Shown here in pieces: positions 8,088 through 42,423 of a DNA stretch of 64,000 nt; the first letter of the stretch is position 1; every line of letters begins with the position of its first letter. A program made the position numbers and the translations under genes. Below the pieces are notes generated by a model, which saw only the letters and a list, made by a program, of their open reading frames with translations, ran no database searches and was not told where the DNA came from. This DNA comes from Actinomyces israelii DSM 43320 (lineage in GTDB: Bacteria; Actinomycetota; Actinomycetes; Actinomycetales; Actinomycetaceae), in assembly GCF_000711965.1 (NCBI RefSeq), contig NZ_JONS01000005.1, positions 1 to 64,000 on the forward strand, in the 5' to 3' direction.

Positions 8088-8298
8088 GCACATGGGAGAG
8101 CGGGCCCCTGGCGGAGCTGACGCCGCTTTTCGCCGGGATTCCGCCAGTTCTCGACGTACGGCCAGATTCGCTGACGTGCTCCCATGTGCACAGAGGGGGG
8201 TCTGCGCACATGGGAGCGTCTCGTCCGCGGCCGCCAGCGCAGCGATTCCGCATGATTCCGCGGTTTTGTCCGGTACGAGTCGCACTCGAATGTGCAAC
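8088..8298. repeat. Dyad-symmetric element, copy 1 (CACATGGGAG half-sites)
   Basis: Four half-sites alternate in direction: GCACATGGGAG at 8088-8098, CTCCCATGTGC at 8179-8189, GCACATGGGAG at 8206-8216 and a decayed TCGAATGTGC at 8286-8295. The two inner ones form a stem with a 16-base spacer (8190-8205) that has a run of six G. GATTCCGC-type motifs occur in both arms (8137-8151, 8254-8267). The same layout and spacing recur at 42201-42423. It lies in a non-coding gap between two minus-strand genes. Function unknown. Confidence 0.75.
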
Positions 8299-8380
8299 AC
8301 CCTCTTGACCGGCTCTCAGGTCCGCGGCTGGGCGCCGCCGAGCCGCGCCTGTGCGCCCCGGGCCCCGTCCGAGTGGCGAG

Positions 8381-9070
8381 TCAGAGGTTGTTGACCCACG
8401 CCTCGCGGTGGTTGGAGAAGAAGCTCAGCGGCTCGTAGATGACGACGAACTGCCCGCCGGCGGCCACATCGGCGTCGAAGCAGACGTCTCCGCTCGTGCT
8501 ACCGCCGTCAATGAGCTTGCCGGACTGAAGAATATTGGTCGACCCGGTGAACCCGGTATTGACGATGGCCCCGGAGGGGGACAGCAACTTGAACTCCAGG
8601 ATATTGAAGTCGACCTCTTTTCCGGAGGAGTTCTGCATAGTGACGCTGGTGCACGCAGTGGAACCAAGCGTCGAGTCTCCCGCCACCAGCGGGGCGGAGG
8701 TGATGGTGACCCCCTTGGCAGTGATGGACTCACCGGCGTTGACCGCCACGTCTCCGTCCTGAATACCGTTGTAGGTGGTGGTCGACGAGGGGTCGCCCGA
8801 GTCGCCGGAGTCGGCCGCGGGAGCCGCCTGGCCCGCGGGAGCCTGGCTCCCCTGGGCGGCCGCTCCCCCGTCACCGCCGGGCGCCGTGGAGGTCCTGGCG
8901 GTGGTCCCCTTGTCGCCGCCGCCCGATATCGAGCCGATGACGCCAATGGCCAGAAAAACCGCGAGGGTGATGAACCACCACCTTTTCCATAGGGGCTTTT
9001 TCGGTTGAGGAGCCGGAACATAAACTACTTGTGGCTGCTGACCCCCGTAGGGTTGCGCAGGCTGAGACAC
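8381..9070 (-). CDS. Membrane-anchored DUF4352-type protein
   Basis: The 229-residue protein has a Gln/Pro-rich cytoplasmic head, one membrane helix (WWFITLAVFLAIGVIGSI, about residues 31-48), a Gly/Ser/Ala/Thr-rich linker (to about 95) and an extracellular beta-rich domain of the DUF4352 immunoglobulin-like type (about 100-229). Two cysteines in that domain (STACTSV and GDVCFD) may form a disulphide. GTG at 9070 is used because AAAGGAG lies about 7 bases upstream; the longer ATG frame lacks this. It is probably a surface or lipoprotein-like protein of unknown role. Confidence 0.8.
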   Translation of the reverse strand: MSQPAQPYGGQQPQVVYVPAPQPKKPLWKRWWFITLAVFLAIGVIGSISGGGDKGTTARTSTAPGGDGGAAAQGSQAPAGQAAPAADSGDSGDPSSTTTYNGIQDGDVAVNAGESITAKGVTITSAPLVAGDSTLGSTACTSVTMQNSSGKEVDFNILEFKLLSPSGAIVNTGFTGSTNILQSGKLIDGGSTSGDVCFDADVAAGGQFVVIYEPLSFFSNHREAWVNNL

Positions 9071-9212
9071 AGCAGACTCCTTTGCGACACAAAAAGGGAG
9101 GGGTGCCTCGAAGATTACCTTCCCCCCGCTCCAATGCAAGTCCTATTTGTCGCAAAACAGGGCCGCGACAGGCCCTATTTATCACGAACTGGTCGCGGTC
9201 CCGCCCGCATCC

Positions 9213-9285
9213 CGTCGAGATAGACATTTTCGGATGAGGTAGACGGTGTCACCGTCTACCTCATCCGAAAATGTCTATCTCGACG
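9213..9285. repeat. Perfect 73-bp palindrome, copy 1
   Basis: Arms of 36 bases (9213-9248 and 9250-9285) are exact reverse complements around one central T. The arm begins CGTCGAGATAGACATTTTCG. It starts 7 bp past the stop of the minus-strand gluconate permease, so it can act as a very stable terminator hairpin, but no T-run follows. A homologous 73-bp palindrome with substitutions lies at 13316-13388, also just after a minus-strand transporter gene. Confidence 0.85.
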
Positions 9286-9291
9286 AGGGGC

Positions 9292-10689
9292 CTAAACGAC
9301 CCGGAGGACGAGGGCGATGGCGCCGATGACCATCATGGCGACCACCGACAGGACCGTCTCCATGAGCGACCAGGTCTTGAAGGTCTGCCCCACCGTCATC
9401 CCGAAGTACTCCTTGACCAGCCAGAAACCGGCGTCGTTGACGTGGGAGAGGAACACCGAGCCCGCCCCGATCGCCAGCACGAGGAGGGCGACCTCGACCG
9501 GGGGCATGTCCGCGGCCAGCTGCGCCATGATCCCCGCGGCGGTGATGGTGGCGACGGTCGCCGACCCCGTGGCCAGGCGCACCGCGACCGCGACGAGCCA
9601 GCCGGCCAGGAGCGCCGGAACCGCCGCCTGCTGGATCCAGGTCGCGATAATGTCGGCGATGCCGGAGTCGACGAGGGTCTGCTTGAAGCCGCCGCCGGCG
9701 CCCACGATGAGCAGGATCCCGGCGATCGGCCCGAGGGAGGCGCCCACCCGGCCGGCCACCTCGTCGGCGTGCAGGCCCAGGCGGGTGCCGAAGACGTACA
9801 TCGCCACCAGCACCGTGATCAGCAGCGCGACAACCGGCTGGCCGACGAACAGGGCGGCGTGCACGGCGGCACTCGCCCCCTTGGGCGCAACGGTCTCCAC
9901 GACGGTGCGCAGGAGCATGAGCACCACGGGCAGCAGGACGACGGCGATCGAGGTGGCGAAGGAGGGGCGCGGGCCCTCGTGGGCCTCGTCGGAGCCGCCG
10001 AGGGGCTCGGGCGCCTCGATGGGCACCCACCGGGCCATGACGCGCGCGGCGAGGGGGCCGGAGATGATGACGGTGGGCACGGCCACCAGCAGCCCCAGGC
10101 CGAGCGTCAGCCCGAGGTTCGCACCGACGGCGTCGATGGCGATGAGCGGGCCGGGGTGCGGGGGCACGAGCCCGTGGAGGGCGGACAGGCCGGCGAGCGC
10201 AGGCACGCCGACGAGGATCAGGGGCTGGTGGGCGCGGCGCGCCACGATCATGACCACGGGGATGAGCAGGACGATGCCGACCTCGAAGAACAGCGGGATG
10301 CCGACGACGAAGGCGATCAGCGCCATGGCCCACGGAAGGCGGGGCCCGGGCGTGCGCGCCAGGATGGTGTCGACGATCTGGTCGGCCCCGCCGGAGTCGA
10401 TGAGCAGCCTGCCGATAATCGCCCCGAAGGCGATGAGCGTGCCCACACCGCCGATCGTCGATCCGAGGCCGGCGGTGAAGGCGGTGAAGGTCTCGCCCAG
10501 GGGGATGCCAGCGACGACGGCGAGCACCGCCGAGCCGAGGGTGAGCGCGAGGAAGGGGTGCATCTTGCGCCACACGATGAGTGCGACGATGACGGCGATG
10601 CCGAGGACCGCCGCGGCGACGAGCCGGGCGGGGCTATCGGTATGGGTCACCGGGTCGGCGGCGGGAAGAGCGAGTGTCAGAGTGGACAT
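9292..10689 (-). CDS. gntP: GntP-family gluconate:H+ symporter
   Basis: The 465-residue protein has 12-14 membrane helices and the GntP signatures: early LGSAVLAVVAGIPL, the GIPLFFEVGIVLLIPVV segment, VPPHPGPLIAIDAVGANLG and a C-terminal HVNDAGFWLVKEYFGMT. It imports gluconate or a related sugar acid. It lies 78 bp downstream of gluconokinase, and the divergent GntR/FCD regulator completes the unit, which supports gluconate as substrate. A 73-bp palindrome follows the stop. Confidence 0.92.
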   Translation of the reverse strand: MSTLTLALPAADPVTHTDSPARLVAAAVLGIAVIVALIVWRKMHPFLALTLGSAVLAVVAGIPLGETFTAFTAGLGSTIGGVGTLIAFGAIIGRLLIDSGGADQIVDTILARTPGPRLPWAMALIAFVVGIPLFFEVGIVLLIPVVMIVARRAHQPLILVGVPALAGLSALHGLVPPHPGPLIAIDAVGANLGLTLGLGLLVAVPTVIISGPLAARVMARWVPIEAPEPLGGSDEAHEGPRPSFATSIAVVLLPVVLMLLRTVVETVAPKGASAAVHAALFVGQPVVALLITVLVAMYVFGTRLGLHADEVAGRVGASLGPIAGILLIVGAGGGFKQTLVDSGIADIIATWIQQAAVPALLAGWLVAVAVRLATGSATVATITAAGIMAQLAADMPPVEVALLVLAIGAGSVFLSHVNDAGFWLVKEYFGMTVGQTFKTWSLMETVLSVVAMMVIGAIALVLRVV

Positions 10690-10767
10690 CGTTGTCGTCT
10701 CCAGGTCGAGGTGGATGGGTTGAATAGGTCTCAGGCAGGGCGGTCCGCGCAGGCGCGGCGAGGCGGA

Positions 10768-11280
10768 TCAGGCGTGCTCGAGCGCGGCGAGGATGGCGTC
10801 GAGGGTCTGCTCGGGGGTGGCCCGGGAGACCACGGTGACGCCGTCCTCGTCGTCGGCCAGGGGCTCGAGGGCGGCGAACTGGGAGGGCAGGAGGGTGGAG
10901 GGCATGAAGTGGCCCTTGCGGTGGGTCATGCGCTCGCGCAGCTCATCGGGCTGGGCGACCAGGTGGATGAAGAAGACGCGCCCCTCGGCCCCGGCGAGGA
11001 GGTCGCGGTAGGAGCGCTTGAGGGCGGAGCAGGTGACGATCGTCCTGACGCCCTCGACGGCGCGCGCGCTCATCCAGTCGCGCAGGGCCTCCAGCCAGGG
11101 CCACCGGTCCTCGTCAGTCAGGGGGACGCCCCGGCTCATCTTGGCGATATTGGCGGCCGGGTGGAAGTCGTCGGCCTCGGCGATGGGCCAGCCGAGGGCC
11201 CGGTGGAGGTTGTCGGCGGCGGTGGACTTGCCGCAGCCCGCCACGCCCATGAGGACGAGGTGCTCAACGGAGGTGGTCAT
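10768..11280 (-). CDS. gntK: Gluconokinase
   Basis: The 170-residue protein matches the thermoresistant/thermosensitive gluconokinase family: P-loop VLMGVAGCGKSTAADNL (about residues 10-26), the EADDFHPAANIAKMSRGVPL substrate loop, TDEDRWPWL, CSALKRSYRDLL and HFMPSTLLPSQFAALE. It makes 6-phosphogluconate from gluconate and ATP. ATG at 11280 has AAGGAG at 5-base spacing; the frame further upstream crosses the operator. First gene of the gntK-gntP operon. Confidence 0.95.
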   Translation of the reverse strand: MTTSVEHLVLMGVAGCGKSTAADNLHRALGWPIAEADDFHPAANIAKMSRGVPLTDEDRWPWLEALRDWMSARAVEGVRTIVTCSALKRSYRDLLAGAEGRVFFIHLVAQPDELRERMTHRKGHFMPSTLLPSQFAALEPLADDEDGVTVVSRATPEQTLDAILAALEHA

Positions 11281-11310
11281 GAGATCTCCTTGACGACGTC
11301 GTTGTCGATC

Positions 11311-11325
11311 ACTAGTACTACTAGT
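11311..11325. promoter_or_regulatory. Gluconate operator (ACTAGTA-C-TACTAGT)
   Basis: A perfect 15-bp palindrome, AT-rich in a very GC-rich setting, 31 bp upstream of the gntK ATG, in the gap between gntK and the divergent GntR/FCD gene. A TATACT -10-like hexamer overlaps it on the minus strand. Size and form fit a GntR/FCD dimer site, so the regulator encoded at 11564 is the obvious ligand. Confidence 0.65.
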
Positions 11326-11563
11326 ATAGCGTAAACGTAGCATCAATGGAATGGGTGTGGGCTCGTTCCGCGCCCCGGGCGCCCCGGCGGACGCGGACCG
11401 CCGTCAGCGCCGAAGGCGCGTTTCTCGATCAGGCCTCCGCCGGCCGCCCGCTACACTGGCGCCGACCGTGCGGGTCGGCCGCGCCGCATGCCCGTACAGG
11501 TCGCCGCCCGGGTCGCCGCATCTTGCCGCCCCACCCACGCCTCACCCCTCCGGGAGCCCGACC

Positions 11564-12280
11564 ATGCCCGCCACCGACCGACGCCACGAGGTCCTCGACG
11601 CCCTCGGGCGCGCCATCGTCGGCGGCGAGATCGCCCCGGGCGCCTCACTGACCCTGGAGGACGTCCAGTCCCGCCACGGGGTGTCGCGGACCCTGGCCCG
11701 CGACTGCGTGCGCACCCTGGAGTCCCTCGGCGTGGTCGAGTCGCGCCGTCGTGTCGGCATCGTGGTGCGCCCCCGCGAGACCTGGTCGGCGCTGGCGCCC
11801 CAGGTGGTGCGCTGGCAGCTCGACGTCGACCCCCACGGCCCCAAGCTCGGGGCGCTGACCGAGCTGCGCGCCGCCATCGAGCCGGTCGCGGCCGCGGCCG
11901 CCGCCCGCCGCGCCACCGAGGCCCAGCGATCCACGCTGCTGACCCTGGCGGACGCCATCCGCTCCACCGGGACGGCCACCGGGAGCGTGGCCTCCTACCT
12001 CGGGGACGACATCGCCTTCCACAGCCTCGTGCTCGAGGCGAGCCACAATGACGCCTTCGAGGCCCTCACCGGCGTCGTCGCGGAGGTCCTCTCCGGGCGC
12101 GCGCGGCTGACCGGGCAGGTCCAGGTGCCCGTGGCGGAGGCGCTGGAACTCCATGTGCGCGTCGCCCGCGCGATCGCGACCGGGGACGCCGCCGCGGCCG
12201 AGGCCCGCATGCGCGAGCTGGTCGCGGAGGTGCGCGAGGCGCTGCTGGACCGCGGCCTGCGGGGCTTCCTCGACAGCTGA
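11564..12280 (+). CDS. gntR: GntR/FCD-family regulator of gluconate genes
   Basis: The 238-residue protein has an N-terminal winged helix (residues about 5-70: GASLTLEDVQSRHGVSRTLARDCVRTLESLGVVESRRRVG) and an all-helical FCD ligand domain (about 90-225) with the expected Asp/His metal positions (DDIAFHSLV and ELHVRVARAI). It is divergent from gntK-gntP and probably represses them until gluconate or 6-phosphogluconate binds. ATG at 11564 is the first start that gives a normal family length; the open frame upstream is spurious. Confidence 0.88.
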   Translation: MPATDRRHEVLDALGRAIVGGEIAPGASLTLEDVQSRHGVSRTLARDCVRTLESLGVVESRRRVGIVVRPRETWSALAPQVVRWQLDVDPHGPKLGALTELRAAIEPVAAAAAARRATEAQRSTLLTLADAIRSTGTATGSVASYLGDDIAFHSLVLEASHNDAFEALTGVVAEVLSGRARLTGQVQVPVAEALELHVRVARAIATGDAAAAEARMRELVAEVREALLDRGLRGFLDS

Positions 12281-12305
12281 GCGCTCCGGGCGGCGCCCCG
12301 CCGGC

Positions 12306-13265
12306 TCAGCCGCAGGCGCGGCGCCCGACCGCCCGCCGTCGCGCCCCGCCGCTCGCCCCCGCCAGGGCGACGGCCGCGGACACCAGCGCGAGGCCGGCCA
12401 TCTCCCATCCGTTGGGCAGCTGGCGCAGCAAGACCACGCCCACGAGCAGGGACGTGGCCGGCATGAGGGAGGACAGGAGCGCGAAGGAGTCCGCACCCAG
12501 CCGCCCGAGCACCACCTGCTCCAGCCGGTAGGGCACCGCCGTCGACAGCACACCGACCCCCGCCACCATGGCGGCGGCGGCCGGAGAGCCGAGGGCGCCG
12601 CCGGCCGTCCCCACGGCGAAGGGGGCGTAGACCAGGGCGCCGACCACCATGCCCACCGCCAGGGAGTCGGCACCGGCGCCGGCGGCCGCCACGCGCCCGC
12701 CCAGGATGATGTAGGCGGCCCAGGCGGCGCCGGCCCCCAGCGCGAGCAGCACCCCGGCCCTCTGACCGGGCTCGCCCGGGTCGACTCCGAGCCCGGAGAT
12801 GGAGACGACGCCGAGGAGGGCCAGGGCGGCGGCCGCGCGCGGACGCCATCCGCGCCCGGTCACGACGGCGACCGCCACCGGCCCCAGGAACTCCAGGGAC
12901 ACGGCCGTCCCCAGCGGCAGCAGCGAGATCGCCGCGTAGAAGACGACGTTCATGGTGGCGGTGGCCGCTCCGAAGACGGCGGCCGCCAGCAGCGCCCGCC
13001 CGGTCCACCGGCGGCGCCAGGGCCGCCTGAGGGCCACCAGCACGACGGCGCCCACCGTCAGGCGCCACCAGGCCACCGTGGTGGAGGGCATGAGCGCGAA
13101 CAGGGTGACCGCCAGCCCCGCCCCGAGGTACTGGGAGAGGGCGGAGGCCATGAAGATCAGCGGCGCCGGGAGACGGTCGGCCGCGGAGGCGACCCCGGCG
13201 CCCGTCCGGGCCTGAGCGGCCCGCGGTGCCGCCCGGGCCGGGGTGCGGGAGTCGTCGGAGCTCAC
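12306..13265 (-). CDS. EamA-family (DMT) transporter, RhtA-like
   Basis: The 319-residue protein has ten membrane helices in two EamA repeats (about residues 35-155 and 170-300), with WWRLTVGAVVLVALRRPWRRR and YAAISLLPLGTAVSLEFLGPVAVAVV as in the RhtA threonine/homoserine exporter branch. It probably exports amino acids or similar metabolites. GTG at 13265 was taken; no strong ribosome site is visible and a start further in cannot be excluded. It is separated from the AEC gene by a 73-bp palindrome. Confidence 0.82.
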   Translation of the reverse strand: MSSDDSRTPARAAPRAAQARTGAGVASAADRLPAPLIFMASALSQYLGAGLAVTLFALMPSTTVAWWRLTVGAVVLVALRRPWRRRWTGRALLAAAVFGAATATMNVVFYAAISLLPLGTAVSLEFLGPVAVAVVTGRGWRPRAAAALALLGVVSISGLGVDPGEPGQRAGVLLALGAGAAWAAYIILGGRVAAAGAGADSLAVGMVVGALVYAPFAVGTAGGALGSPAAAAMVAGVGVLSTAVPYRLEQVVLGRLGADSFALLSSLMPATSLLVGVVLLRQLPNGWEMAGLALVSAAVALAGASGGARRRAVGRRACG

Positions 13266-13315
13266 GGCCGCATTGTCGGCGCCTCGGCGGCCGTCGCGCG
13301 AGCTGCAGCCAGTGC

Positions 13316-13388
13316 CGTCCAGACAGACGCTTTCGGACGAGACAGACGGCGACCCCTCCTGCCTCGTCCGAAAACGTCTGCCTCGACG
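13316..13388. repeat. 73-bp palindrome, copy 2 (diverged)
   Basis: Same length and arm pattern as the palindrome at 9213-9285: the left arm starts CGTCCAGACAGACGCTTTCG and the right arm ends GTCTGCCTCGACG. The arms pair over about 30 bp with a few mismatches, and differences from copy 1 are mostly transitions (C for T, G for A). It lies 27 bp past the stop of the minus-strand AEC transporter gene, the same position relative to a gene end as copy 1. Confidence 0.8.
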
Positions 13389-13414
13389 CCGGGGCCCGGC
13401 CCGCCCCCTGGCGC

Positions 13415-14392
13415 TCAGCCCAGCACCGCGGCCGCGAGCAGAACGACCGGGACGAAGCCGGCGGTCGTGATCAGCACGGCGTCGCGGCCCAGCGGCTTGG
13501 CCACCCCGTAGCGGGAGGCATACATGAAGACGTTCTGGGCGGTCGGCAGGGCGGCGGCGGTGATGGGCACGAGCAGCCCCGGCCCGCGCAGTCCCGCGCC
13601 GAGCCCGAGCAGCCCCGCCAGGCCGGGCGCGACGAGCAGCTTCCACCCCACGGCCCAGCGCAGGGCGACCCGGCTGGCGGCGTCGTGGGCCGGCTCGGGC
13701 GGTGACGCCGGGGCGTCGTCTGCGAGCGGGGCGCGCATGCGGGAGGCCGCCAGGCTCATGCCGAGCGAGAGCATCATGAGCGGCACGGCGATGCGCCCGA
13801 GGGTGTCGAGGGCCTCGCGCAGGCGCCCGCCGGCGACGCCGTCCAGGTCCGCCCCGCTGAGGTTGACCGCGGCCCCGGCCGCCACGGCCAGTAGCAGGGG
13901 GTTGCGCAGCGGGATGGTGAAGGTCGCCAGGCGCGAGGGGCTGCCGCGACGGGTGACGGTGTCGAGGATGACGAAGGCCGCAGGCGTGATGACGAGCAGC
14001 TGGAGGAGCAGGACCGGGGCGATGGGGGCGGCGTCTCCCAGGACCAGGACGAGGACGGGGATCCCCAGGTTGGCGGCGTTGACGTACCCGGAGGCGAGCG
14101 CGCCGATGGTCGCCTCGGCCGTCGTGCGGTGCAGGAGTAGGCGGTGCAGGACCCAGGCGCTCAGGATCGCCGCCGACTCGGCCGCGAGCGCGACGAGCGT
14201 GCCGGTGCCGGCCACCGCCCCCAGGTCGGCGTCGGCCAGGGTGCAGACCAGCAGGGCCGGGGTGGCGGCGAAGAAGCAGACGCGGGTGAGCACAGCGTCG
14301 GCGTTGCGGGGGACGGCACCGGTGCGCACCAGCAGCCAGCCGACGCCGATAACGGCGGCGAAGACGGCCAGGCCGCCAATGACCCCACCCAC
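13415..14392 (-). CDS. AEC-family transporter
   Basis: The 325-residue protein has about ten membrane helices in two halves. Features of the auxin-efflux-carrier family (Mem_trans) are the SGYVNAANLGIPVLVLVLGD segment (about residues 101-120), the hydrophilic Pro/Ala loop in the middle and the late LPTAQNVFMYASRYG. Bacterial AEC proteins carry malate, lactate or other anions; the substrate here is unknown. It is 9 bp downstream of the endonuclease/phosphatase-fold gene, so it is likely in the same transcript as msrB. Confidence 0.85.
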   Translation of the reverse strand: MGGVIGGLAVFAAVIGVGWLLVRTGAVPRNADAVLTRVCFFAATPALLVCTLADADLGAVAGTGTLVALAAESAAILSAWVLHRLLLHRTTAEATIGALASGYVNAANLGIPVLVLVLGDAAPIAPVLLLQLLVITPAAFVILDTVTRRGSPSRLATFTIPLRNPLLLAVAAGAAVNLSGADLDGVAGGRLREALDTLGRIAVPLMMLSLGMSLAASRMRAPLADDAPASPPEPAHDAASRVALRWAVGWKLLVAPGLAGLLGLGAGLRGPGLLVPITAAALPTAQNVFMYASRYGVAKPLGRDAVLITTAGFVPVVLLAAAVLG

Positions 14393-14401
14393 GGCCGGGC
14401 C

Positions 14402-15379: not shown

Positions 15380-15380
15380 G

Positions 15381-15881: not shown

Positions 15882-15944
15882 GCCCCTATGGTGACCCGGC
15901 GTCGTGGCGGAGGCGAGGGGCGTTCACGCACCGGGAACGCGAAA

Positions 15945-15993: not shown

Positions 15994-16001
15994 CCGGATG
16001 C

Positions 16002-17534: not shown

Positions 17535-18310
17535 GCCGGCACCCTAGGGCCCGGTCCTGGGAGCCGGCTGTGCGAGACGGCAGGCGGCGGGGGCCGGGCA
17601 GCTCGACCTCCACCTCGATGCCCGTCGCTCAAAGGTCCTCGGCCGCCCCCAGCAGGCACTGCCCCACCTCGTCGACCAGGTCCACCCGCGCCGTGGGCGC
17701 CGGGGCGGGGCCGACGTCGTCACCAGCGCGATCGGCTCCATCGGCTCCGTCTTGGCACCACCACCTGGCGCTCCCTCTCTTCGTCGAGATCGGTCGTATT
17801 CCGGCTCGAGATCGGTTCACTTCCGCGCCGAGATCGGTCCGGTCCGACGGCAGGCGCCCCCACCGTCGGCCGTCCGCCGCCTCTGCGGGTCCCGGCCCGC
17901 CCCTGCACGCGGTCGTGCCCTCACTCACCGGGCCCGGTCGGTCAGGCGATGTCCGCGCGCCGCAGCACTGGCCGGCGCCGCCGCTCCGCCGCGGAACCGC
18001 GGAGTCCCGCCGATCCTCATCGAGTACGGCAGTGCCGGTCACCTTAAGAGTGCGTGGGAGCCGTCTTTTCCGGCCGAGACCGACCCCCAAGACCCCGGCA
18101 GCGCCCAGCGGGCCACGGACCGGCGCACGAAGAGTCCGCCGGACGCCGCGATCCACCTGCGTCCGCCTCGGGGCAGGCCGGGGCGGGCTCCTAGACCGTG
18201 ATCGGGTGCAGCGCCCGGGCGCCCGACCGTCCCGGCCCTCGCCCCCGGAAGCAACCACCTGGATGATCGAGCCCGGGCGCCACGACGCGGCGACAGCAGC
18301 ACAATAACGC
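17535..18310. other. 776-bp gap without gene between MscS and PadR genes
   Basis: No gene is convincing; open frames on both strands have random Arg/Pro/Gly-rich composition. It holds the 22-bp-period array (17785-17838). Its end (about 18140-18225) resembles 41805-41960, sharing the block CAGCGCCCGGGC and a CTGCG(T/C)CCGCCTCGGGGCA stretch, so the gap is built at least partly of dispersed repeats. Confidence 0.55.
17785..17838 (+). repeat. 22-bp-period GAGATCGGT array, three units
   Basis: CGAGATCGGT begins at 17785, 17807 and 17829, exactly 22 bp apart. The between-motif sequence of units 1 and 2 is related (TATTCCGGCT, TCACTTCCGCGC). Same motif and same 22-bp period recur at 19883, 26709, 41764, 52486, 60662 and 60970. 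Confidence 0.85.
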
Positions 18311-18327: not shown

Positions 18328-18386
18328 TCATAGTACGTTGGATGTATGAAACCTGCTCGCCCCCCGACCGGAGGAGGCGTCCGCGA

Positions 18387-19820: not shown

Positions 19821-19914
19821 CTCGCCCCGAGCATCCCCCTCGGCGCTCTCCACGCCGCGCCCGGCCCCGACGTCGGGACCGGACCGATCTCGACGCGGAG
19901 GTGAACCGATCTCG
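19821..19914 (-). repeat. 94-bp dispersed repeat ending in 22-bp-period array (copy 1)
   Basis: About 60 bp of unique lead (CTCGCCCCGAGC... to GACGTCGGGACCGG) are followed by two ACCGATCTCG units at 19883 and 19905, 22 bp apart. The whole block is repeated at 26650-26740 with a few substitutions and two 2-base gaps. Both copies lie in the gap after the end of a plus-strand operon. Confidence 0.85.
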
Positions 19915-26649: not shown

Positions 26650-26762
26650 TCGCCCCGAGCGCCCTCCTCGGCGCTCTCCGCGCCGCCCGGCCCCGACGTC
26701 GGGACCGGACCGATCTCGACGCGGAGGTGAACCGATCTCGAGCCGGAGACCTACCGATCCCG
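26650..26762 (-). repeat. Dispersed repeat with 22-bp-period array (copy 2)
   Basis: Matches 19821-19914 over about 94 bp and continues with a third unit: ACCGATCTCG at 26709 and 26731, then ACCGATCCCG at 26753, each 22 bp apart. Lies between the end of the dms operon and the tRNA cluster. Confidence 0.85.
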
Positions 26763-35744: not shown

Positions 35745-35769
35745 ACGCCCGGCTCCAGGGGGGACTCAG

Positions 35770-35844
35770 CGCTTACTACGCTCCTTTGTCCCTTACTACG
35801 CTCCTTCTCCTCGTACAGTAAGGGACAAAGGAGCGTAGTAAGCG
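35770..35844. terminator. Long hairpin after ABC operon
   Basis: Perfect 26-bp arms (35770-35795, beginning CGCTTACTACGCTCC, and 35819-35844) with a 23-base loop that starts with a copy of the arm's CTACGCTCCTT. It lies 25 bp past the stop of subunit 2. No T-run; it could end the transcript or block read-through into the next operon. Confidence 0.7.
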
Positions 35845-35979
35845 TCCTGGGCGCCACCGGACCCCGCTCGCCGCCGAAGCGGTACCCCGCCGACGCCCGC
35901 CGTGTGAGATTCTGTGCACGGTAGATTCACACACGACGCTCGCCGCCGCGAGCACCCGCACCGGATGAAGGTCGATCCT

Positions 35980-36441: not shown

Positions 36442-36911
36442 GCCCGAAGCAGGTGACGCAGCCGGGGCAGCGGCCCCCCGCCCGGTCCCCCGAGGCCATT
36501 GAGGCCGCGCTGGCCGCGCAGCGCGCCCAGCTGGTCGACGACGTCGAGGCGCTGGCCGCCGTCATGGCGCCCGAGGCGCTGAAGTCGGTGGCGCACCGGA
36601 CGGTCCAGGGTACCGCCGCCGAGTGGCGCAGGCGGGCCGGAATCAGCGCGGCCCGTCTCAAGGCGCGCGCCGGCCTGGTGAGGGACGACCCGCTGGTGCG
36701 CGAGGCGCCCGCCGGCTCCTGCCCCATAGGCTGCGCGTACCTGAGGGCCGCGACTGCGAGGATCTCCCCCGCCTCGGTCCGCAACCGGCTGGCTCAACTG
36801 GTCGACGACGCCCGCGACGGCGAGCCCGTCTCGCTCGCCATCGTGACCGGCGCCGTCGCCGTGCTGGCGGGGCTCAGCGCGGTCGCCGTCGTCAAGGCGG
36901 TGCGCCGGTGA
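36438..36911 (+). CDS. DUF3618 membrane protein
   Basis: The 157-residue protein has the DUF3618 start (SPEAIEAALAAQRAQLVDDVEALAAVM), amphipathic helices and one C-terminal membrane helix (VSLAIVTGAVAVLAGLSAVAVVKAV). DUF3618 proteins are encoded with holin-X proteins in many actinobacteria. GTG at 36438 overlaps the previous stop (GTGA). Confidence 0.85.
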   Translation: MSPKQVTQPGQRPPARSPEAIEAALAAQRAQLVDDVEALAAVMAPEALKSVAHRTVQGTAAEWRRRAGISAARLKARAGLVRDDPLVREAPAGSCPIGCAYLRAATARISPASVRNRLAQLVDDARDGEPVSLAIVTGAVAVLAGLSAVAVVKAVRR

Positions 36912-37255
36912 GCGGGCGGACCGCCGCGCGGGCGCTCGAGGGCCCCGAGGACATCGAGGCGAGGCTGCGGGCCCAGCGCGAGACGCTGGCGGCCGGCGTG
37001 GACGAGCTGGCGGCGCGGGTGGACCCGCGGACCCGGGCGCGCCTGGCCGGGGAGGACCTGCGCGACCGCGCCGAGGCCGCCACCACCGGCCTGCGCGACC
37101 GCGCCGAGGCCGCCGCCACCAGCCTGCGCGACCGCACCCGGCGGACCGTCGAGGACGCGCGTGCAGGCGACTCCGAGGCGATCAGGCAGCTGGCCGCGGC
37201 GGCCGGCGGGGCGCTCGCCGTGTCGCTGGTCGTCGGCCGGATGCTGCGGCGCTGA
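36908..37255 (+). CDS. DUF3618 protein with 11-residue amphipathic repeats
   Basis: The 115-residue protein repeats the DUF3618 head (GPEDIEARLRAQRETLAAGVDELAARVDP), then has three 11-residue units (LRDRAEAATTG, LRDRAEAAATS, LRDRTRRTVED), a period typical of membrane-surface amphipathic helices, and ends in a membrane helix (LAVSLVVGRML). GTG at 36908 overlaps the previous stop (GTGA). It looks like a paralogue of the gene before it. Confidence 0.82.
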   Translation: MSGRTAARALEGPEDIEARLRAQRETLAAGVDELAARVDPRTRARLAGEDLRDRAEAATTGLRDRAEAAATSLRDRTRRTVEDARAGDSEAIRQLAAAAGGALAVSLVVGRMLRR

Positions 37256-37493
37256 GGCCCGCCAGGCGCTCGGCACCGGCGGGGAGAGCCCGGGGAGCCG
37301 TCCGGATCCGGCCGCGTCGGCGGGGCTTTCCCCGAGGAACGTGACGCCCGCCGCGTGGGCGGTGCCACGGCCGCAGGGGCGGTGCCGAATGGTGCTGACA
37401 CGTGCGCTCGTTGTACGGTTGGGCCACGACACATTTGCCCAAGTGAAGCGCGTCCATGTGCGCGCCCAGAGATTGTTGGAGGGGGTCGAGCCT

Positions 37494-37733
37494 ATGGGGC
37501 GCGGCCGTCAGAAGGCCAAGGCGACCAAGGTCGCCCGTAAGCTCAAGTACTTCAGCCCGGCGACCGACTACGCGGCACTCGAGCGAGAGCTCGTCTCCCG
37601 GTCGTCGGGCACCGAGTCCGACGACGAGGTCGACTACGAGCAGCTGGCCGCCAAGTACGCGGTCGACGATGACGACTGGGACGACTCGGATGGTTCGGAC
37701 GTCAGCGGGGCGGGGCCAGGCCGTCGGAGTTGA
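37494..37733 (+). CDS. DUF3073 protein
   Basis: The 79-residue protein begins MGRGRQKAKATKVARKLKYFSPATDY, the invariant head of the actinobacterial DUF3073 family, and ends in an acidic Asp/Glu-rich tail. Function unknown; the basic head could bind nucleic acid. ATG at 37494 has GGAGGGGG about 10 bases upstream. It has its own strong terminator, so it is a single-gene unit. Confidence 0.92.
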   Translation: MGRGRQKAKATKVARKLKYFSPATDYAALERELVSRSSGTESDDEVDYEQLAAKYAVDDDDWDDSDGSDVSGAGPGRRS

Positions 37734-37750
37734 CCCGGGGTTGACACGGA

Positions 37751-37790
37751 GGGGTCGGCAGGCGCTGCGCCTGCCGACCCCCTTTTTTTT
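37751..37790 (+). terminator. Canonical rho-independent terminator
   Basis: 14-bp arms (GGGGTCGGCAGGCG and its complement, 37751-37764 and 37768-37781), a 3-base loop and a run of eight T (37783-37790), directly after the DUF3073 gene. Confidence 0.97.
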
Positions 37791-37877
37791 GCGCCCGCCC
37801 CTCTTGCAGCGCGCGACGGGCGGGCGCATACTCGGCACCAGGGCCGACCGGCAGTCGGTTTTAGTTTGGAGATTCGC

Positions 37878-38519
37878 ATGGCCCCACAGCACCTGAGCGC
37901 CCCGGTCCGGCAGGCGCAGATCCTCGACGCCGCCCACCGCCTCTTCCTCGCCAAGGGCTACGACGCCACCACGATCGAGGACATCCTGGACGCCGTCGGC
38001 ATCGCCAAGGGCACGCTCTACCACCACTTCCCCGGCAAGGAGTCGATCCTCGACGCGATCGTCGTGCGCGCCTCGGACGCGATCGCCGAGCGCGCGGCCC
38101 GCGCCGCGAGCGCGCCGGGGCCCGCGCCGGAGCGCTTCCTGGCGGCCGTGGCCGCGGCGCGCGCACCCGAGGAGGACATCGAGCTCGCCCAGCAGCTCCG
38201 TTCGAGCGGAAACCTGCGGTTCCACGTCCTGTCCATGACCGAGGGCTACGCGCGCCTGGTCCCCATCCTCACCCGCGTGGTCGAGGAGGGCGTCGCGGCC
38301 GGCGAGCTGAGCACGCCCGACCCGCACGGCAGCGTCGAGGTCATTCTCGCGGCCGGGCTCACCCTGCTCGAGGGCGGCATCTTCCCGCCCGCGGAGGACG
38401 GCGGCGGCGCCTCGGCGGCAGACGCCTCAGCCGCGCGGCGCCAGGCGGCTCTGGCGCGCGCGGCCGCCCTGCTCCTGGGGGCTGACCCCGTCTCCATCTC
38501 CGTGCCCAGGCGCTTCTGA
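37878..38519 (+). CDS. TetR/AcrR-family regulator
   Basis: The 213-residue protein has a TetR HTH (ILDAAHRLFLAKGYDATTIEDILDAVGIAKGTLYHHFPGKESIL, about residues 13-56) and a helical ligand domain. It ends in an Ala-rich helix. ATG at 37878 has GGAG 8 bases upstream. It is convergent with purM and has no obvious target next to it apart from the DUF3073 gene, so its regulon is not predictable here. Confidence 0.88.
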   Translation: MAPQHLSAPVRQAQILDAAHRLFLAKGYDATTIEDILDAVGIAKGTLYHHFPGKESILDAIVVRASDAIAERAARAASAPGPAPERFLAAVAAARAPEEDIELAQQLRSSGNLRFHVLSMTEGYARLVPILTRVVEEGVAAGELSTPDPHGSVEVILAAGLTLLEGGIFPPAEDGGGASAADASAARRQAALARAAALLLGADPVSISVPRRF

Positions 38520-38567
38520 CGCCGAGCCCGCCCGGGCTCCCTCAACGCCGAGCACGCTCCGCCGCGC

Positions 38568-39731
38568 TCAGGCGGTGCGGTAGCTCCCGAAGACGTCCAC
38601 GGCGCCGCCGTCCACGCCCTTGGTGCCGGCCACCAGCCGGCCCCGCGGCCCGTAGCTCTGCGCCTCGTGGACGCCGCCGAGCACCCAGGCGGGGATATCG
38701 GCCGCCTGCGCCACGCCCAGGACGGCGTCGGCCCACTCCGGATCGACGACGGCGACCATGCCCACCCCCAGGTTGAGGGTGCCCTCCAGGTCGTCCCACG
38801 GGACGGAGCCGAGCCGCCGCACGAGGTCGAAGACAGGCGGGACGATCCAGCCGGAGCGGTCGACGTCGGCGACCAGGTCGGCGGGCAGGACCCGGGCGAG
38901 GTTCGCGGCCAGACCCCCGCCGGTGACGTGGGACAGCGCGTGGAGCGGCGAGGGCGCCGCGTCCGGGCCGAGCGCCCCGAGCATGGCCAGGCAGGCCTTG
39001 GTATACAGGCGGGTCGGCTCGAGCAGCTCCTCGCCCAGGGTGCGGCCGAGCTCGGGCACGGTCCGCTCCAGGCCCCAGTCGGCGTCGGCGACCACGCGCC
39101 GCACCAGGGAGTAGCCGTTGGAGTGCAGGCCCGAGGAGGCCATGGCGATCAGGACGTCGCCGGGGCGCACGCGCTCGGGCCCCAGCACCCGGTCGGCCTC
39201 GACGACCCCGGTGGCGGCGCCGGCGAGGTCGTACTCGTCCGGGTCCATGAGGCCGGGGTGCTCGGCGGTCTCCCCGCCCAGCAGGGGCGTGCCGACGGAG
39301 GCGCAGGCGGCGGCCACGCCGCGCACGATGTCGGCGATGCGCTCGGGGACGACGCGCCCGCACGCGATGTAGTCGGTCATGAGCAGGGGGCGGGCGCCGA
39401 CCACGACAATGTCGTCGACGACCATGCCGACCAGGTCCTGGCCGATGGTGTCGTGGACGTCGAGGGCCCGGGCGATGGCGACCTTGGTGCCCACGCCGTC
39501 GGTGGAGGCGGCCAGCAGGGGGCGGCGGGCCCCGCGCAGGGAGGAGACGTCGACCAGGCCGGCGAAGCCGCCGACTCCCCCGACCACGGCCGGCGTCATG
39601 GTGGCGGCCACGGAGGCCTTCATGAGCTCGACGGCGCGGTCGCCGGCGGCGGTGTCAACCCCGGCGGCGGCGTAGGTGGTCCCGGCGGCCGGGACGACGT
39701 CGGCGGCGGCGGGCTGGGGGCGGGGGCTCAT
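38568..39731 (-). CDS. purM: Phosphoribosylformylglycinamidine cyclo-ligase
   Basis: The 387-residue protein is AIR synthetase: YAAAGVDTAAGDRAVELMK, the ADVDG-like substrate loop, LAASTDGVGTKVAIA, DLVGMVVDDIVVVGARPLLMTDYIA, GGETAEHPG, SSGLHSNGYSLVR and LNLGVGMVAV. It makes aminoimidazole ribotide from FGAM in purine synthesis. ATG at 39731 overlaps the purF stop (ATGA), so purF-purM are coupled. Confidence 0.96.
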   Translation of the reverse strand: MSPRPQPAAADVVPAAGTTYAAAGVDTAAGDRAVELMKASVAATMTPAVVGGVGGFAGLVDVSSLRGARRPLLAASTDGVGTKVAIARALDVHDTIGQDLVGMVVDDIVVVGARPLLMTDYIACGRVVPERIADIVRGVAAACASVGTPLLGGETAEHPGLMDPDEYDLAGAATGVVEADRVLGPERVRPGDVLIAMASSGLHSNGYSLVRRVVADADWGLERTVPELGRTLGEELLEPTRLYTKACLAMLGALGPDAAPSPLHALSHVTGGGLAANLARVLPADLVADVDRSGWIVPPVFDLVRRLGSVPWDDLEGTLNLGVGMVAVVDPEWADAVLGVAQAADIPAWVLGGVHEAQSYGPRGRLVAGTKGVDGGAVDVFGSYRTA

Positions 39732-41602
39732 CGGCTGGCTCCTTCGGCGGGGTCGGTTGCAGCGGGTGCTATGGGCGCGGCAGGCCCGGTGGGCGCGGCG
39801 CCCGGACGCGCCGGGGCCGGCCGGGGGGCGGGAGACGCGCTCGCGGTCAGGTCGGGGCGGGTGATCCGGTCCGGGGGGATGGGCGCGAAGACCGGCTCCC
39901 CGGCGTCGTCGGCGCGGCGACGGTAGACGGCGGGCACCCGGGAGACGGGCAGCGTCCCCGGCACCGCCCCCTCGGCGGGCGGGGGGATGGGGTAGTCGCC
40001 GGTGAAGCAGGCGGTGCACAGCTGGCTGCGCGGCTGCCCAGTGGCCTCGACCATGCCGCCGACGGACAGATAGCCGAGGGAGTCGGCGCCGATGGACTCG
40101 CGGATCTGCTCCACGCTCATGGAGGTGGCGATGAGCTCGGCGCGGGTGGCGAAGTCGATGCCGTAGAAGCACGGCCACAGCACCGGCGGGGAGGAGATGC
40201 GGATGTGGATCTCGGCGGCGCCGGCCTCCCGCAGCATGCGCACCAGGGCCCTCTGGGTGTTGCCCCGCACGATGGAGTCGTCGACGACGACGAGCCGCTT
40301 GCCGGCGATGACCTCGCGCACGGGGTTGAGCTTGAGACGGATGCCGAGCTGGCGCAGGGTCTGGGTGGGCTGGATGAAGGTGCGCCCGACGTAGGCGTTC
40401 TTGACCAGTCCCTGGCCGTAGGGGATGCCGGAGGCCTGGGCGTAGCCGATGGCGGCGGGCGTGCCGGACTCAGGGGTGGCAATGACCAGGTCCGCCTCGA
40501 CCGGGTGCTCTCGGGCCAGTGCCTCCCCCATGGCGTTGCGGGAGGCGATGACGGACCGGCCGGCGATCTTGGTGTCGGGACGGGCCAGGTAGACGTACTC
40601 GAAGACGCAGCCCGAGCGGCGCGGCCGGGCGAAGCGGGTCGAGCGCACGCCGTCGGCGTCGATCTCGATCATCTCGCCGGGCTCGATCTCGCGCACCGGG
40701 CTCGCTCCGACGATGTCGAGGGCCGCGGTCTCCGAGGCCACGACCCAGCCGCGCTCCAAGCGCCCCAGGACCAGGGGGCGCACGCCGTGGGGGTCCCGGG
40801 CGGCGTACAGGGTGTGCTCGTCCATGAACACCAGGGAGAAGGCGCCGCGCAGCATGGGCAGGACGCGGCGGGCCGCCTGGGGGACGGTCAGCGGGGCGGG
40901 CCGGGCCTCCCCGACGGGGTGCGCGCCGCGGCGGCCGGGGTCGTCGGGGTCGTCGAGGTAGAGGTCGGCGTCGGGGTCGTCAGGCGGGCCGCCGGCAGCG
41001 GCGCCGACACCGGCTTCCCGGGCCGCGAGGCGTCCGCGCTCGGAGACGAGGTTCATGAGCGCGGCAATAACGGCGGTGTCCGTCGAGGAGCCGCGACCGA
41101 GCTCGCCGCTGAGGTCCTCGCCGCTGGTGGCGCGCACCGCCTCCATGAGCTCGCGGGTGTTGGTGAGGTTGCCGTTGTGGGTCAGAGCCAGGGTGGAGCC
41201 GGCGACCGGCCCGAGCATGGGCTGGGCGTTCTCCCAGGTGGTGGCCCCGGTGGTGGCGTAGCGGACGTGCCCGACGGCGAGGTGCCCGGTCAGGGAGGAC
41301 AGGGTGCGGTCGTCGAAGACCTGGGAGACCAGGCCGAGGTCCTTGTAGACCAGGATGTGGGAGCCCTCGGTGGAGGCGATGCCGGCGGCCTCCTGTCCGC
41401 GGTGCTGGAGGGCGTAGAGCCCGAAGTAGGCCAGGCGGGAGACCTCCTCGCCGGGGGCCCACACGCCGAAGACGCCGCACTCCTCGGCCGGGCTGGGCTC
41501 GAGCTCGGCCAGGCGGCCTGCCGGGGCGGCCCGCCGGGGCGATGTGACGGCGTCGGGCGGGGCGGGGCGGATGGTGGTCAGGGTGCTGTCGCCGAGGCTC
41601 AC
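39728..41602 (-). CDS. purF: Amidophosphoribosyltransferase
   Basis: The 624-residue protein has the processed N-terminal Cys (ECGVFGVWAPG), the glutaminase block YALQHRGQEAAGIAS, SDTAVIAALM-like STDTAVIAALMNLV and the PRPP loop VVDDSIVRGNTQRA. Iron-sulfur Cys positions are present (SGCVFEYVY, LWPCFYGID, LCTACFTGDYP), so it is the Fe-S type. About 45 extra Pro/Asp/Gly-rich residues interrupt the glutaminase domain near residue 200, and the tail after about 535 is Pro/Ala-rich. GTG at 41602 was chosen; the GTG six codons upstream is possible. First enzyme of purine synthesis. Confidence 0.95.
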   Translation of the reverse strand: MSLGDSTLTTIRPAPPDAVTSPRRAAPAGRLAELEPSPAEECGVFGVWAPGEEVSRLAYFGLYALQHRGQEAAGIASTEGSHILVYKDLGLVSQVFDDRTLSSLTGHLAVGHVRYATTGATTWENAQPMLGPVAGSTLALTHNGNLTNTRELMEAVRATSGEDLSGELGRGSSTDTAVIAALMNLVSERGRLAAREAGVGAAAGGPPDDPDADLYLDDPDDPGRRGAHPVGEARPAPLTVPQAARRVLPMLRGAFSLVFMDEHTLYAARDPHGVRPLVLGRLERGWVVASETAALDIVGASPVREIEPGEMIEIDADGVRSTRFARPRRSGCVFEYVYLARPDTKIAGRSVIASRNAMGEALAREHPVEADLVIATPESGTPAAIGYAQASGIPYGQGLVKNAYVGRTFIQPTQTLRQLGIRLKLNPVREVIAGKRLVVVDDSIVRGNTQRALVRMLREAGAAEIHIRISSPPVLWPCFYGIDFATRAELIATSMSVEQIRESIGADSLGYLSVGGMVEATGQPRSQLCTACFTGDYPIPPPAEGAVPGTLPVSRVPAVYRRRADDAGEPVFAPIPPDRITRPDLTASASPAPRPAPARPGAAPTGPAAPIAPAATDPAEGASR

Positions 41603-41763
41603 CCGATCAGTCTTCCACACGCGGCCCGCCGGGCCGGGATCTTCCCAGGTGTGGAGGAGCGGCCGCGGGAGACGCCCGCAACGGCGACGGCGTGCTGCGA
41701 CCCGGCGGCCCCTCGGCGCGCAAGCCTGCGACGGCCCGGCGAGACGCGACGGCGCCCCCTCGC

Positions 41764-41795
41764 CGAGATCGGTTCACTTCCGCGCAGAGATCGGT
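41764..41795 (+). repeat. 22-bp-period GAGATCGGT array, two units
   Basis: CGAGATCGGT at 41764 and AGAGATCGGT at 41786, exactly 22 bp apart, joined by TCACTTCCGCGC. Lies about 160 bp upstream of purF. Confidence 0.85.
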
Positions 41796-41990
41796 TCGAG
41801 GAGCCCGCCGGGCGCCGCAATCCGCCTGCGCCCGCCTCGGGGCACGGCAGGAATTGCATGAGGAGCGTGGGTCTTGAGTCGATCCGCCCGCACCCGTCTC
41901 GGGCGCGGGCCGGGACGGGCGCCGGGACCGTGAGCAGGCGCAGCGCCCGGGCACCCGCCTGGCGCACCGGAACGTGAACGTACCTTCCCA

Positions 41991-42061
41991 ACGTCAACGT
42001 GCCTTTCTCCCATCCTTCTGAGGTCTACCCCCAGAAGGATGGGAGAAAGGCACGTTGACGT
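41991..42061. repeat. Long hairpin, 30-bp perfect arms
   Basis: Arms 41991-42020 (start ACGTCAACGTGCCTTTCTCC) and 42032-42061 are exact reverse complements with an 11-base loop. The outer CGTTGACG sequence is repeated once more at 42072-42080. No gene end is near, so a simple terminator role is unlikely. Confidence 0.85.
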
Positions 42062-42200
42062 GACGAACTTCCGTTGACGTTGAGGCTCCCCGCCCGCCCC
42101 GGCCGGCGCCCCCGGGATCACCTGGGCCCTGTCGCGGATGCCGCTGGGGCCGGAGGCCGGCGCCGGCGGCGTGCGACGATCCGGCCGAGAGGAGGGGACC

Positions 42201-42423
42201 GCACATGGGAGAAGAGGAGCCCGCCGGGGCGAGTGCGACCTTTCCGCATGATTCCGCCGTTTTCGACTACCCGTCAAGATGAGCTGCCGCGCTCCCATGT
42301 GCACAGACCCCCCTGCGCGCACATGGGAGCGCGGCAGCTCATCTTGACGAACCCCGAAGAACCGCAGAATCTCAACGAAACACCGCACCCGCCCCGCGAA
42401 AGCCTTCCCCTCCCATGTGCAAC
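42201..42423. repeat. Dyad-symmetric element, copy 2, with 31-bp hairpin core
   Basis: Half-sites: GCACATGGGAG at 42201, CTCCCATGTGC at 42292, GCACATGGGAG at 42319 and CTCCCATGTGC at 42410, alternating in direction and symmetric about the centre. The inner pair lies within perfect 31-bp arms (42272-42302, 42319-42349) with a 16-base spacer that has a run of six C. GATTCCGCCGTTTT (42250) and its mirrored form (AAGAACCGCAGAATC) stand in the two arms. Compare 8088-8298. Confidence 0.88.

Follow-up and report, generated by a model that had tools for sequence, protein, structure and literature searches.

The window, i.e. the whole stretch of DNA analysed here, comprises 64,000 nt (positions 1-64,000, plus strand) of contig NZ_JONS01000005.1 from Actinomyces israelii DSM 43320 (genome code G000) and contains two elements built from inverted half-sites (Table 1). 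Re-reading the sequence confirmed their location as given in a preliminary description (8088-8298 and 42201-42423), the inner spacer of 16 bases with six G in element 1 or six C in element 2, and the presence of a GATTCCGC-type motif in each arm of both elements. The four alternating half-sites claimed for each element are all exact in element 2, but only three are exact in element 1, the fourth being the variant TCGAATGTGC. Counted from half-site start to half-site end, the distance of about 90 bp reported for the outer sites applies to the right arm of element 1 (90 bp), but not to the other three arms, which span 102 bp. Likewise, the symmetry ascribed to both elements is a property of element 2, whereas element 1 is asymmetric (arms of 102 vs. 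90 bp). We refer to elements with symmetric arms, such as element 2, as class A and to asymmetric ones, such as element 1, as class B. The arm motifs point in the same direction in element 1 and face each other in element 2.

Table 1. Parts of the two elements in the window.
Feature	Position	Strand	Basis
Element 1 (class B), outer half-site of long arm, GCACATGGGAG	8088..8098	+	exact match
Element 1, long-arm motif GGGATTCCGCC	8135..8145	+	sequence; motif spacing in family
Element 1, inner left half-site CTCCCATGTGC	8179..8189	-	exact match
Element 1, spacer of 16 bases with G6	8190..8205	+	sequence
Element 1, inner right half-site GCACATGGGAG	8206..8216	+	exact match
Element 1, short-arm motif CATGATTCCGCGG	8251..8263	+	~52 bp from inner, 38 bp from outer half-site
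Element 1, outer half-site of short (90 bp) arm, variant TCGAATGTGC (plus-strand reading)	8286..8295	-	
Element 2 (class A), outer left half-site	42201..42211	+	exact match
Element 2, left-arm motif CATGATTCCGCCG	42247..42259	+	sequence
Element 2, inner left half-site	42292..42302	-	exact match
Element 2, spacer of 16 bases with C6	42303..42318	+	sequence
Element 2, inner right half-site	42319..42329	+	exact match
Element 2, right-arm motif, TGAGATTCTGCGG on the minus strand	42362..42374	-	
Element 2, outer right half-site	42410..42420	-	exact match
Element 2, perfect 31-bp inverted repeat around spacer (class A feature)	42272..42349	no strand	

Both elements belong to a family of ~220-base elements that lie between genes in Actinomyces and carry up to four half-sites at distances that change in steps of about one helix turn. 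A genome-wide search with the core CTCCCATGTGC-N15/16-GCACATGGGAG (CTCCC-type) yielded 21 cores in the own 4.03-Mb genome and no match for a reversed control pattern, and the same genome holds 104 half-sites vs. 0 for the control; the elements are not due to chance. The core recurs in 11 of the 36 congeners searched, with 0 to 42 exact copies per congener, and in none of 22 genomes from other genera; of the genomes G059-G070 this search covered G061 only. Copies are thus present in relatives, and they are not confined to insertion sequences. A second half-site type, GCACATCTTC (GAAG-type), has the same layout in three congeners, namely G024, G070, and G035 (12, 21, and 55 cores, respectively; 0 in the other 46 of 49 congeners), and CTCCC-type cores are absent from G024 and G035. 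The inner pair has a single recognition sequence in every genome examined, either GCACATGGGAG or GCACATCTTC, i.e. the half-sites are lineage-specific. Neither core is found in 33 of the 49 congeners, 10 of which lay outside the CTCCC search, so that a general function would require half-sites of further types, unless it is dispensable. Inner pairs built from the outer half-site of other species (GAGCGTGC..GCACGCTC) were rejected as a further type, as they occur at chance level and have no common form (one match each in 6 of 49 genomes, spacers of 12-20 bases; one match in 2 genomes for the reversed control). No repeat of such kind is described for Actinomyces among the literature matches listed, a scope that mostly excludes subscription journals.

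The distances within the elements are helically phased. Most arms in the sampled CTCCC-type species measure 89-91 or 101-104 bp and most spacers 15-16 bases; a few other values also occur. The arms of the three GAAG-type species follow an 11-bp ladder of 79/90/101/112 bp, 35 of 36 lying within 1 bp of 11n+2 (the arm common to both cores of the tandem locus L311 being entered twice), and without L311 none of 2000 random sets was equally periodic; 68-bp matches in G021 are weak (up to three mismatches) and were not used. The outer half-sites are inverted on nearly all arms examined and thus form terminal inverted repeats. In both types the directional mid-arm motif, where recognisable, mostly has a distance of 52 or 42 bp to one half-site, that to the other being 28, 38 or 48-50 bp. 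With a threshold of at least 10/13 matches, the distance to the CATG-side half-site is 52 or 42 bp in 128/136 CTCCC-type arms (98 at 52, 30 at 42) and in 12/13 GAAG-type arms (11 at 52, 1 at 42), the motif being recognisable in only part of the arms (136/196 and 13/36, respectively). As CTCCC-type outer sites were sought at ladder lengths only (and found on 196 of 214 arms), this count tests the position of the motif, not arm length. Helical phasing is a feature of double-stranded DNA and thus fits a protein-DNA complex and speaks against a structured RNA.

The half-sites are also constrained in sequence. In 23 younger class B copies from A. massiliensis they deviate from the consensus by 1.6% vs. 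21% for the arms, and in seven ortholog pairs 11/140 positions of the outer half-sites have changed vs. 295/1158 of the remainder (Fisher p = 5e-7). The inner half-sites of these pairs show 2/154 changes, a figure that is biased in five of the seven pairs, for which the exact core served to detect both members; the inner sites of the other two pairs, detected by profile, differ at 2/44 positions. This tally excludes L040/L035, L050/L287, and L058 or L290 with A. massiliensis 995820, as well as L022/L056, which share an intergenic region, but whose elements are unalignable in place. Old and young copies were divided by nearest-neighbour identity, and L025, a near-copy of L017, was omitted from the own set used for divergence. 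Since profile detection of old copies leans on the half-sites, the divergence figures for old copies are biased, and constraint is tested more fairly by the younger copies and by the ortholog pairs. The presence of copies in many congeners, the low half-site divergence and the quantised spacing lend good support to the conserved binding site suggested in the preliminary description.

Based on these findings we consider it probable that the elements are dispersed, BIME-like architectural DNA sites, bound by a putative lineage-specific host protein. Alternatively, they might be MITE-like non-autonomous mobile elements, moved by a transposase or recombinase encoded elsewhere. In that case the outer half-sites would serve as terminal inverted repeats, the inner pair and the motifs would belong to a transposition or recombination complex, and the strict geometry would be kept because only copies having such geometry move. 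The copies indeed turn over: nine own loci have a conserved flank on either side in A. massiliensis, and the element is present there at two and missing at seven, so that most of these copies were dispensable over the time since the A. massiliensis split. The seven loci include that of element 2, whose A. massiliensis counterpart also lacks the gntP gene, and L023, for which a partial class B match is found elsewhere in that region. Apart from this turnover, mobility is favoured by the inverted outer ends, by the wide range of exact-core copy numbers among congeners, and by 23 of 35 A. massiliensis copies having a sister copy at 0.80-0.93 identity vs. 0.75 in two ortholog pairs with G000, which implies that copies spread after speciation. 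However, conservation peaks at the centre of the element and not at its ends, and half-sites are kept in old and orthologous copies, for which mobility alone gives no explanation. Moreover, none of 49 Actinomyces genomes encodes a Y1 transposase, the type covered by the genome-wide transposase search, and no protein family recurs at more than two of the own loci (n = 21, up to 5 kb on each side). Nor is a target-site duplication definable at orthologous regions without the element, as the gained stretches are longer than the element (four loci shown). The exact core is absent from viral contigs, and neither element 2 in plasmids nor element 1 in phages gave a match. A mobile element is thus possible, but rather unlikely.

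As to the adjoining genes, a simple gene finder based on codon scores calls no gene that overlaps any of the 21 own copies, in agreement with the earlier view that the elements are not a decayed gene. Looping operators are known from GalR and AraC, and the helically phased inverted half-sites resemble them, i.e. the elements might be operators of an ordinary transcription factor regulon. Yet, among the 18 own copies that are flanked by predicted genes on either side, 3 lie between convergent, 3 between divergent and 12 between tandem genes, without preferred orientation, and the convergent and tandem positions count against operators. So do the turnover of element positions between species and the 20 neighbour genes examined in other species, which represent a variety of families with metabolic, transport and housekeeping functions (one has no family), only the endonuclease/exonuclease/phosphatase (3) and beta-lactamase-like (2) families being seen more than once. 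We therefore regard a regulon of this kind as very improbable. One intergenic site, 3' of an endonuclease/exonuclease/phosphatase gene, is occupied by an element of the CTCCC type in A. glycerinitolerans, G005, and A. massiliensis, and by one of the GAAG type in G035; the distance to the gene end is 153-254 bp. As ~0.6 such coincidences are expected by chance (a rough estimate from 17 GAAG-type and 91 CTCCC-type loci, assuming 2500 intergenic regions), this shared site alone proves nothing.

A structured RNA, which the preliminary description had named as the other option, would be a small RNA or an untranslated-region hairpin formed by the long palindrome. Element 2 has a perfect stem of 31 bp, and in 10 own copies the class A stem covaries (10/31 pairs changed on both sides, a score reached by 1/500 shuffles). 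This covariation is real and also counts against a pure protein site, which does not require it. The 20 bases beside the inner half-sites pair at 14-20 positions in 9 of 10 own class A copies, but in class B, to which 32 of the 36 full copies from 1.6 Mb of the A. massiliensis genome belong, only at 7-12 of 20 positions (11 own copies), i.e. at about chance level. Further, covariation is absent from the spacer-closing pairs of G021, G035, G070, and G000 (38, 39, 20, and 14 distinct copies, respectively), the second pair in G035 even being anti-correlated. These sets comprise all 42 spacers in G021 (38 distinct), 39 of 55 cores in G035 (41 among the matches listed, two duplicates dropped), 20 of 21 spacers in G070 (one 16-base spacer omitted), and the distinct 16-base spacers from 17 copies in G000 (four 15-base ones omitted). 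In Rfam only three tRNAs in the window reach the cut-offs; matches below cut-off are to miRNA hairpin models and one viral UTR model. Class A covariation can arise by template switching between the arms, to which we ascribe it because in some class A copies the spacer, judged by eye, has an inverted orientation with respect to the arms, although it may instead stem from selection for a hairpin in class A. Taken together, the helical ladder of arm lengths, the variable orientation to genes, the lack of covariation in the spacer-closing pairs, the chance-level pairing of class B arms and the Rfam result led us to reject a structured RNA as the main reading and leave it only a very slight probability, the covarying class A stem notwithstanding.

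On the chromosome, the origin half accounts for 44 of 63 exact cores from six complete genomes (p = 0.002; five genome lengths are rounded) and the terminus-most 40% for only 10 of 63. In A. massiliensis an unrelated 22-bp control repeat has 23 units in the 120 kb of six stretches sampled from contigs C2 and C3, whereas the 1.6 Mb of C1 contain ~40 per 100 kb. Two half-sites and one partial element were also present in the six stretches, and C3 bears elements (L039, L042). As the control repeat is scarce too and the genome lengths are rounded, we do not rely on terminus exclusion as an element-specific signal. The orientation of class B copies toward the origin in A. massiliensis (22/32, p = 0.05) is too weak for use, and G021 shows no regular chromosomal spacing of elements (coefficient of variation 1.09).

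For the architectural site that we favour, we propose that a sequence-specific protein of the host lineage may bind the four 10-11-bp half-sites as inverted pairs, the inner ones 15-16 bp apart and the outer ones ~80-110 bp away, and that a second factor or a second domain may act at the directional mid-arm motif, bending or holding the DNA in a way that would bring the outer half-site of each arm to its inner one within a compact looped complex. All contacts would then have to lie on one face of the helix, which would explain why arm length changes only by about one turn. As each genome examined has one inner recognition sequence, the sites probably evolved together with a trans-acting factor. 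Copies would be gained and lost between species through some copying route, and once established they may be kept by selection on half-sites and spacing. The role of such a complex might be local organisation of the nucleoid or of supercoils rather than regulation of adjoining genes. It is a doubtful idea that the family represents a new chromosome-architecture element, i.e. a modular, phased multi-site complex whose putative protein switches its recognition sequence between lineages, with tens of copies following, partly at the same positions. Repeats scattered between genes are commonly taken for decaying mobile DNA or for RNA hairpins, and the ladders of about one turn in two recognition types are evidence at the sequence level that such repeats can act as protein-DNA machines. 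If the cognate protein were found, it would provide an example of a DNA-binding specificity that changed in concert with tens of genomic sites inside a single bacterial genus, as well as a handle on Actinomyces chromosome organisation.

Several known systems are comparable in part. Noc, SlmA, and MatP sites are single short palindromes. The elements resemble them as dispersed DNA sites for one (here putative) protein with a non-uniform chromosomal distribution, but differ as 220-bp four-site elements whose copy number varies widely among congeners, and their regional scarcity is common to the unrelated 22-bp repeat. The RIB/RIP elements, repetitive IHF-binding palindromes that constitute a BIME subclass, likewise occur in many copies and have inverted repeated units around a site for a bending protein, which is putative in the case of the elements, but the elements have four half-sites and two motif arms. 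CGTC-tagged palindromic repeats are described with stems of 8-9 bp and loops of 4-5 bases and from five phyla that do not include Actinobacteria (PMC3733652). The elements share with them the form of dispersed palindromes without dedicated transposase, and the class A inner stem starts with CGTC; they differ in a stem of up to 31 bp and a spacer of 15-16 bases, and class B has no such stem. REP sequences are 20-40-bp palindromes, whereas the elements have 10-11-bp half-sites and 80-110-bp arms with a mid-arm motif. The elements also lack a GTAG-type unit, and in copies read by eye neither a GTAG nor a CGTC tag, as defined in PMC3733652, was found at the foot of a short hairpin. Membership in the REP/RAYT system was rejected, as the Y1/RAYT gene is absent from the 49 Actinomyces genomes (PF01797 in 0/49 vs. 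5/14 control genomes). Nevertheless, like BIMEs, REPs and REPINs, the elements are intergenic, regularly spaced and present in tens of copies or more per genome, with inverted units in alternating orientation and a species-specific sequence, but, unlike in BIMEs, their arm length is quantised by about one helical turn.

Both dyad-symmetric elements that the preliminary description reported in the window are present, except that element 1 has a variant form, TCGAATGTGC, as its fourth half-site. A second correction concerns the arms (inner to outer half-site, measured from half-site start to half-site end): the right arm of element 1 comprises 90 bp, the other three 102 bp. A search of the own genome (Actinomyces, 4.03 Mb, 102 contigs) for the core, i.e. 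the inverted inner half-site pair CTCCCATGTGC-N15/16-GCACATGGGAG, yielded 21 matches and the reversed control none; the single half-site GCACATGGGAG was found 104 times, its reversed control never. Genes predicted with a simple codon-score gene finder are not overlapped by any of the 21 copies, and the 18 copies with a predicted gene on each side are located between convergent (3), divergent (3) or tandem (12) genes. Two of the own copies, L017 and L025, are 99% identical and share the left flank, their right flanks differing further out; this pair is a recent duplication.

Positions of the elements and of related or neighbouring repeats
Feature	Sequence	Position	Observation
Element 1	window	8088-8298	class B
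Element 2	window	42201-42423	class A
Second palindrome	window	41985-42070	CTCCCATCCTTCTGAGGTCTACCCCCAGAAGGATGGGAG with CAACGT arms; adjoins element 2
Sequence like second palindrome	L023	5253-5352	beside class A copy
Sequence like second palindrome	A. massiliensis L071		
Palindrome related to second palindrome	A. massiliensis contig C1	near 201.9 kb	
22-bp repeat array	window	17786-17840	
22-bp repeat array	window	19881-19913	
22-bp repeat array	window	26707-26739	
22-bp repeat array	window	41765-41797	
22-bp repeat array	window	52487-52519	
Duplicate copy	L017	4740-5200	
Duplicate copy	L025	1-480	
Tandem copies	L311	1400-1720	G035 contig C1 206025-206153
Tandem copies	G035 contig C6	24999-25138	
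Opposite class B pair	A. massiliensis contig C1	604606/607786	
Opposite class B pair	A. massiliensis contig C1	676069/680440	
Opposite class B pair	A. massiliensis contig C1	752746/761516	

The own exact copies form two classes. In class A (10/21) both arms are 102 bp long and the directional arm motifs face each other as a rule, and class B (11/21) combines a 102-bp with a 90-bp arm, its motifs being oriented alike. Within the 20 bases flanking the inner half-sites 14-20 positions pair in nine of the ten class A copies (the tenth, L021, has 8), compared with 7-12 in class B copies. A profile search of 1.6 Mb of A. massiliensis gave class B as best match for 32 copies and class A for four. By eye, the class A copies L011, L012, L018 and C8:31608 have a spacer (G6 or C6) whose orientation is inverted with respect to arms and arm motifs.

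Relatives carry copies, too: the exact CTCCC core occurs in 12 of 37 genus genomes (own included) and in none of 22 genomes of other genera of the same order. A species-level genome collection, which may lack records close to the own genome, returned 46 matching stretches, every title being Actinomyces. The exact core is absent from the viral contigs searched, and neither element 2 against plasmids nor element 1 against phages gave a match. Arms of ~102 and ~90 bp are the usual ones in A. dentalis, Actinomyces sp. AC-20-1, G021 and the rumen species, and only 90-91 bp arms occur in a small number of copies from A. denticolens, G033 and G018; outer half-sites vary between species, e.g. GCACATTCG, GCACACTCG and GCACGCTCA. 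In rumen Actinomyces (L041, L043, L051, L078, L032) the repeated unit reaches out by ~140 bp on one side, and its far end, GGCTCTTC.GTTTGG, is similar to the terminal repeats that bound insertion sequences of the ISL3 family.

G024 and G035, both without CTCCC core, contain elements built on the same plan from GCACATCTTC. A genus-wide search found 55 such GAAG-type cores in G035, 12 in G024 and 21 in G070; the remaining 46 genomes, including the 13 known to be CTCCC-type, have none. Both inner half-site types begin with GCACAT, the remaining bases being exchanged. In the tandem copies inner pairs recur after 94 or 105 bp, and thus arms and inner pairs are modular.

In 18 GAAG-type cores all 36 arms have an outer half-site, with lengths of 79 (10 arms), 90 (14), 91 (2), 95, 100, 101 (4), 111, 112, 113 and 133 bp. 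Thirty-five of these are at most 1 bp off 11n+2; when L311 is excluded, the periodicity of the arms is reached by none of 2000 random sets. The motif CATGATTCCGCGG, scored as present at ≥10/13 matches, is found on 13/36 GAAG-type arms, 52 (11), 42 (1) or 62 bp (1) from the half-site on its CATG side, and on 136/196 CTCCC-type arms, where this distance is 52 (98), 42 (30) or another value (8) and 38, 48 and 50 bp predominate on the opposite side. Arms of 90 bp split into 52 + 38 in 10/10 scored own cases and 17/18 from A. massiliensis, and the two common CTCCC-type arm lengths differ by 12-13 bp, slightly over one helical turn. If half-sites and motif have to lie on one face of double-stranded DNA, the distances on either side of the motif should vary in steps of about one turn.

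Half-sites change less than arms. Compared with the class B consensus, 23 younger A. massiliensis copies differ by 1.6% in half-sites and by 21% in arms; the corresponding values are 4.4% and 40% for 11 own copies, and 8.4% and 57% for eight old A. massiliensis copies, this last pair of values being detection-biased. In seven cross-species ortholog pairs 11/140 outer half-site positions differ versus 295/1158 positions in the rest of the element (Fisher p = 5e-7), the weakest pair being L048/L287 (5/20 in outer half-sites); for inner half-sites the value is 2/154, which is ascertainment-biased. The A. massiliensis ortholog of element 1 is flanked by the same two genes.

We propose a looped protein-DNA complex in which the half-sites would be bound as inverted pairs, each arm would be folded at its mid-arm motif and the two arms would be placed back to back. 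Our confidence that the element is basically a protein-bound architectural site of this kind is moderate.

Alternatively, the element might be chiefly mobile, its geometry being set by a synaptic complex, which we regard as less likely.

Of nine own copies with both flanks conserved in A. massiliensis, two are present there and seven absent; four absent loci were aligned (~66-179 bp versus ~650-1136 bp in the own genome), but the insertion ends are unreadable as the stretch gained or lost is longer than the element. For 23/35 A. massiliensis copies the identity to a sister copy is 0.80-0.93, exceeding the 0.75 of the two ortholog pairs between own genome and A. massiliensis, and therefore copies have spread since the split. 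No neighbour protein family recurs in more than two of 21 own loci. The opposite class B pairs on A. massiliensis contig C1 bracket 3-9 kb segments and resemble composite elements.

As to the structured RNA also considered in the preliminary description, the class A stem covaries (both sides changed in 10/31 pairs; score matched by 1/500 shuffles). A general RNA is disfavoured by spacer-closing pairs without significant covariation in 4/4 species, class B arm pairing no better than chance, and an arm-length ladder that belongs to the double helix. Template switching across the palindrome would yield both inverted spacers and perfect class A stems.

In six complete genomes only 10/63 exact cores lie in the 40% of the chromosome nearest the terminus. 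An unrelated 22-bp repeat is likewise scarce in sampled A. massiliensis stretches (contigs C2, C3), and the scarcity of cores is thus non-specific. The window contains arrays of a 22-bp direct repeat (CGAGATCGGTTC...) that look intergenic, with a spacing of mostly 22; exact CGAGATCGGT occurs 139 times in 521 kb of the own genome and 509 times in 1.2 Mb of A. massiliensis, where the repeats point inward around class B elements (on the left 88 + and 14 -, on the right 77 - and 0 +).

Among the open-licence literature matches listed, none describes an Actinomyces repeat of this kind. REP/RAYT membership (definition in PMC3733652) was rejected, as the 49 Actinomyces genomes searched contain no Y1 transposase. 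The architectural site and the mobile element are overlapping readings since BIMEs are both, and the element behaves similarly to a BIME.
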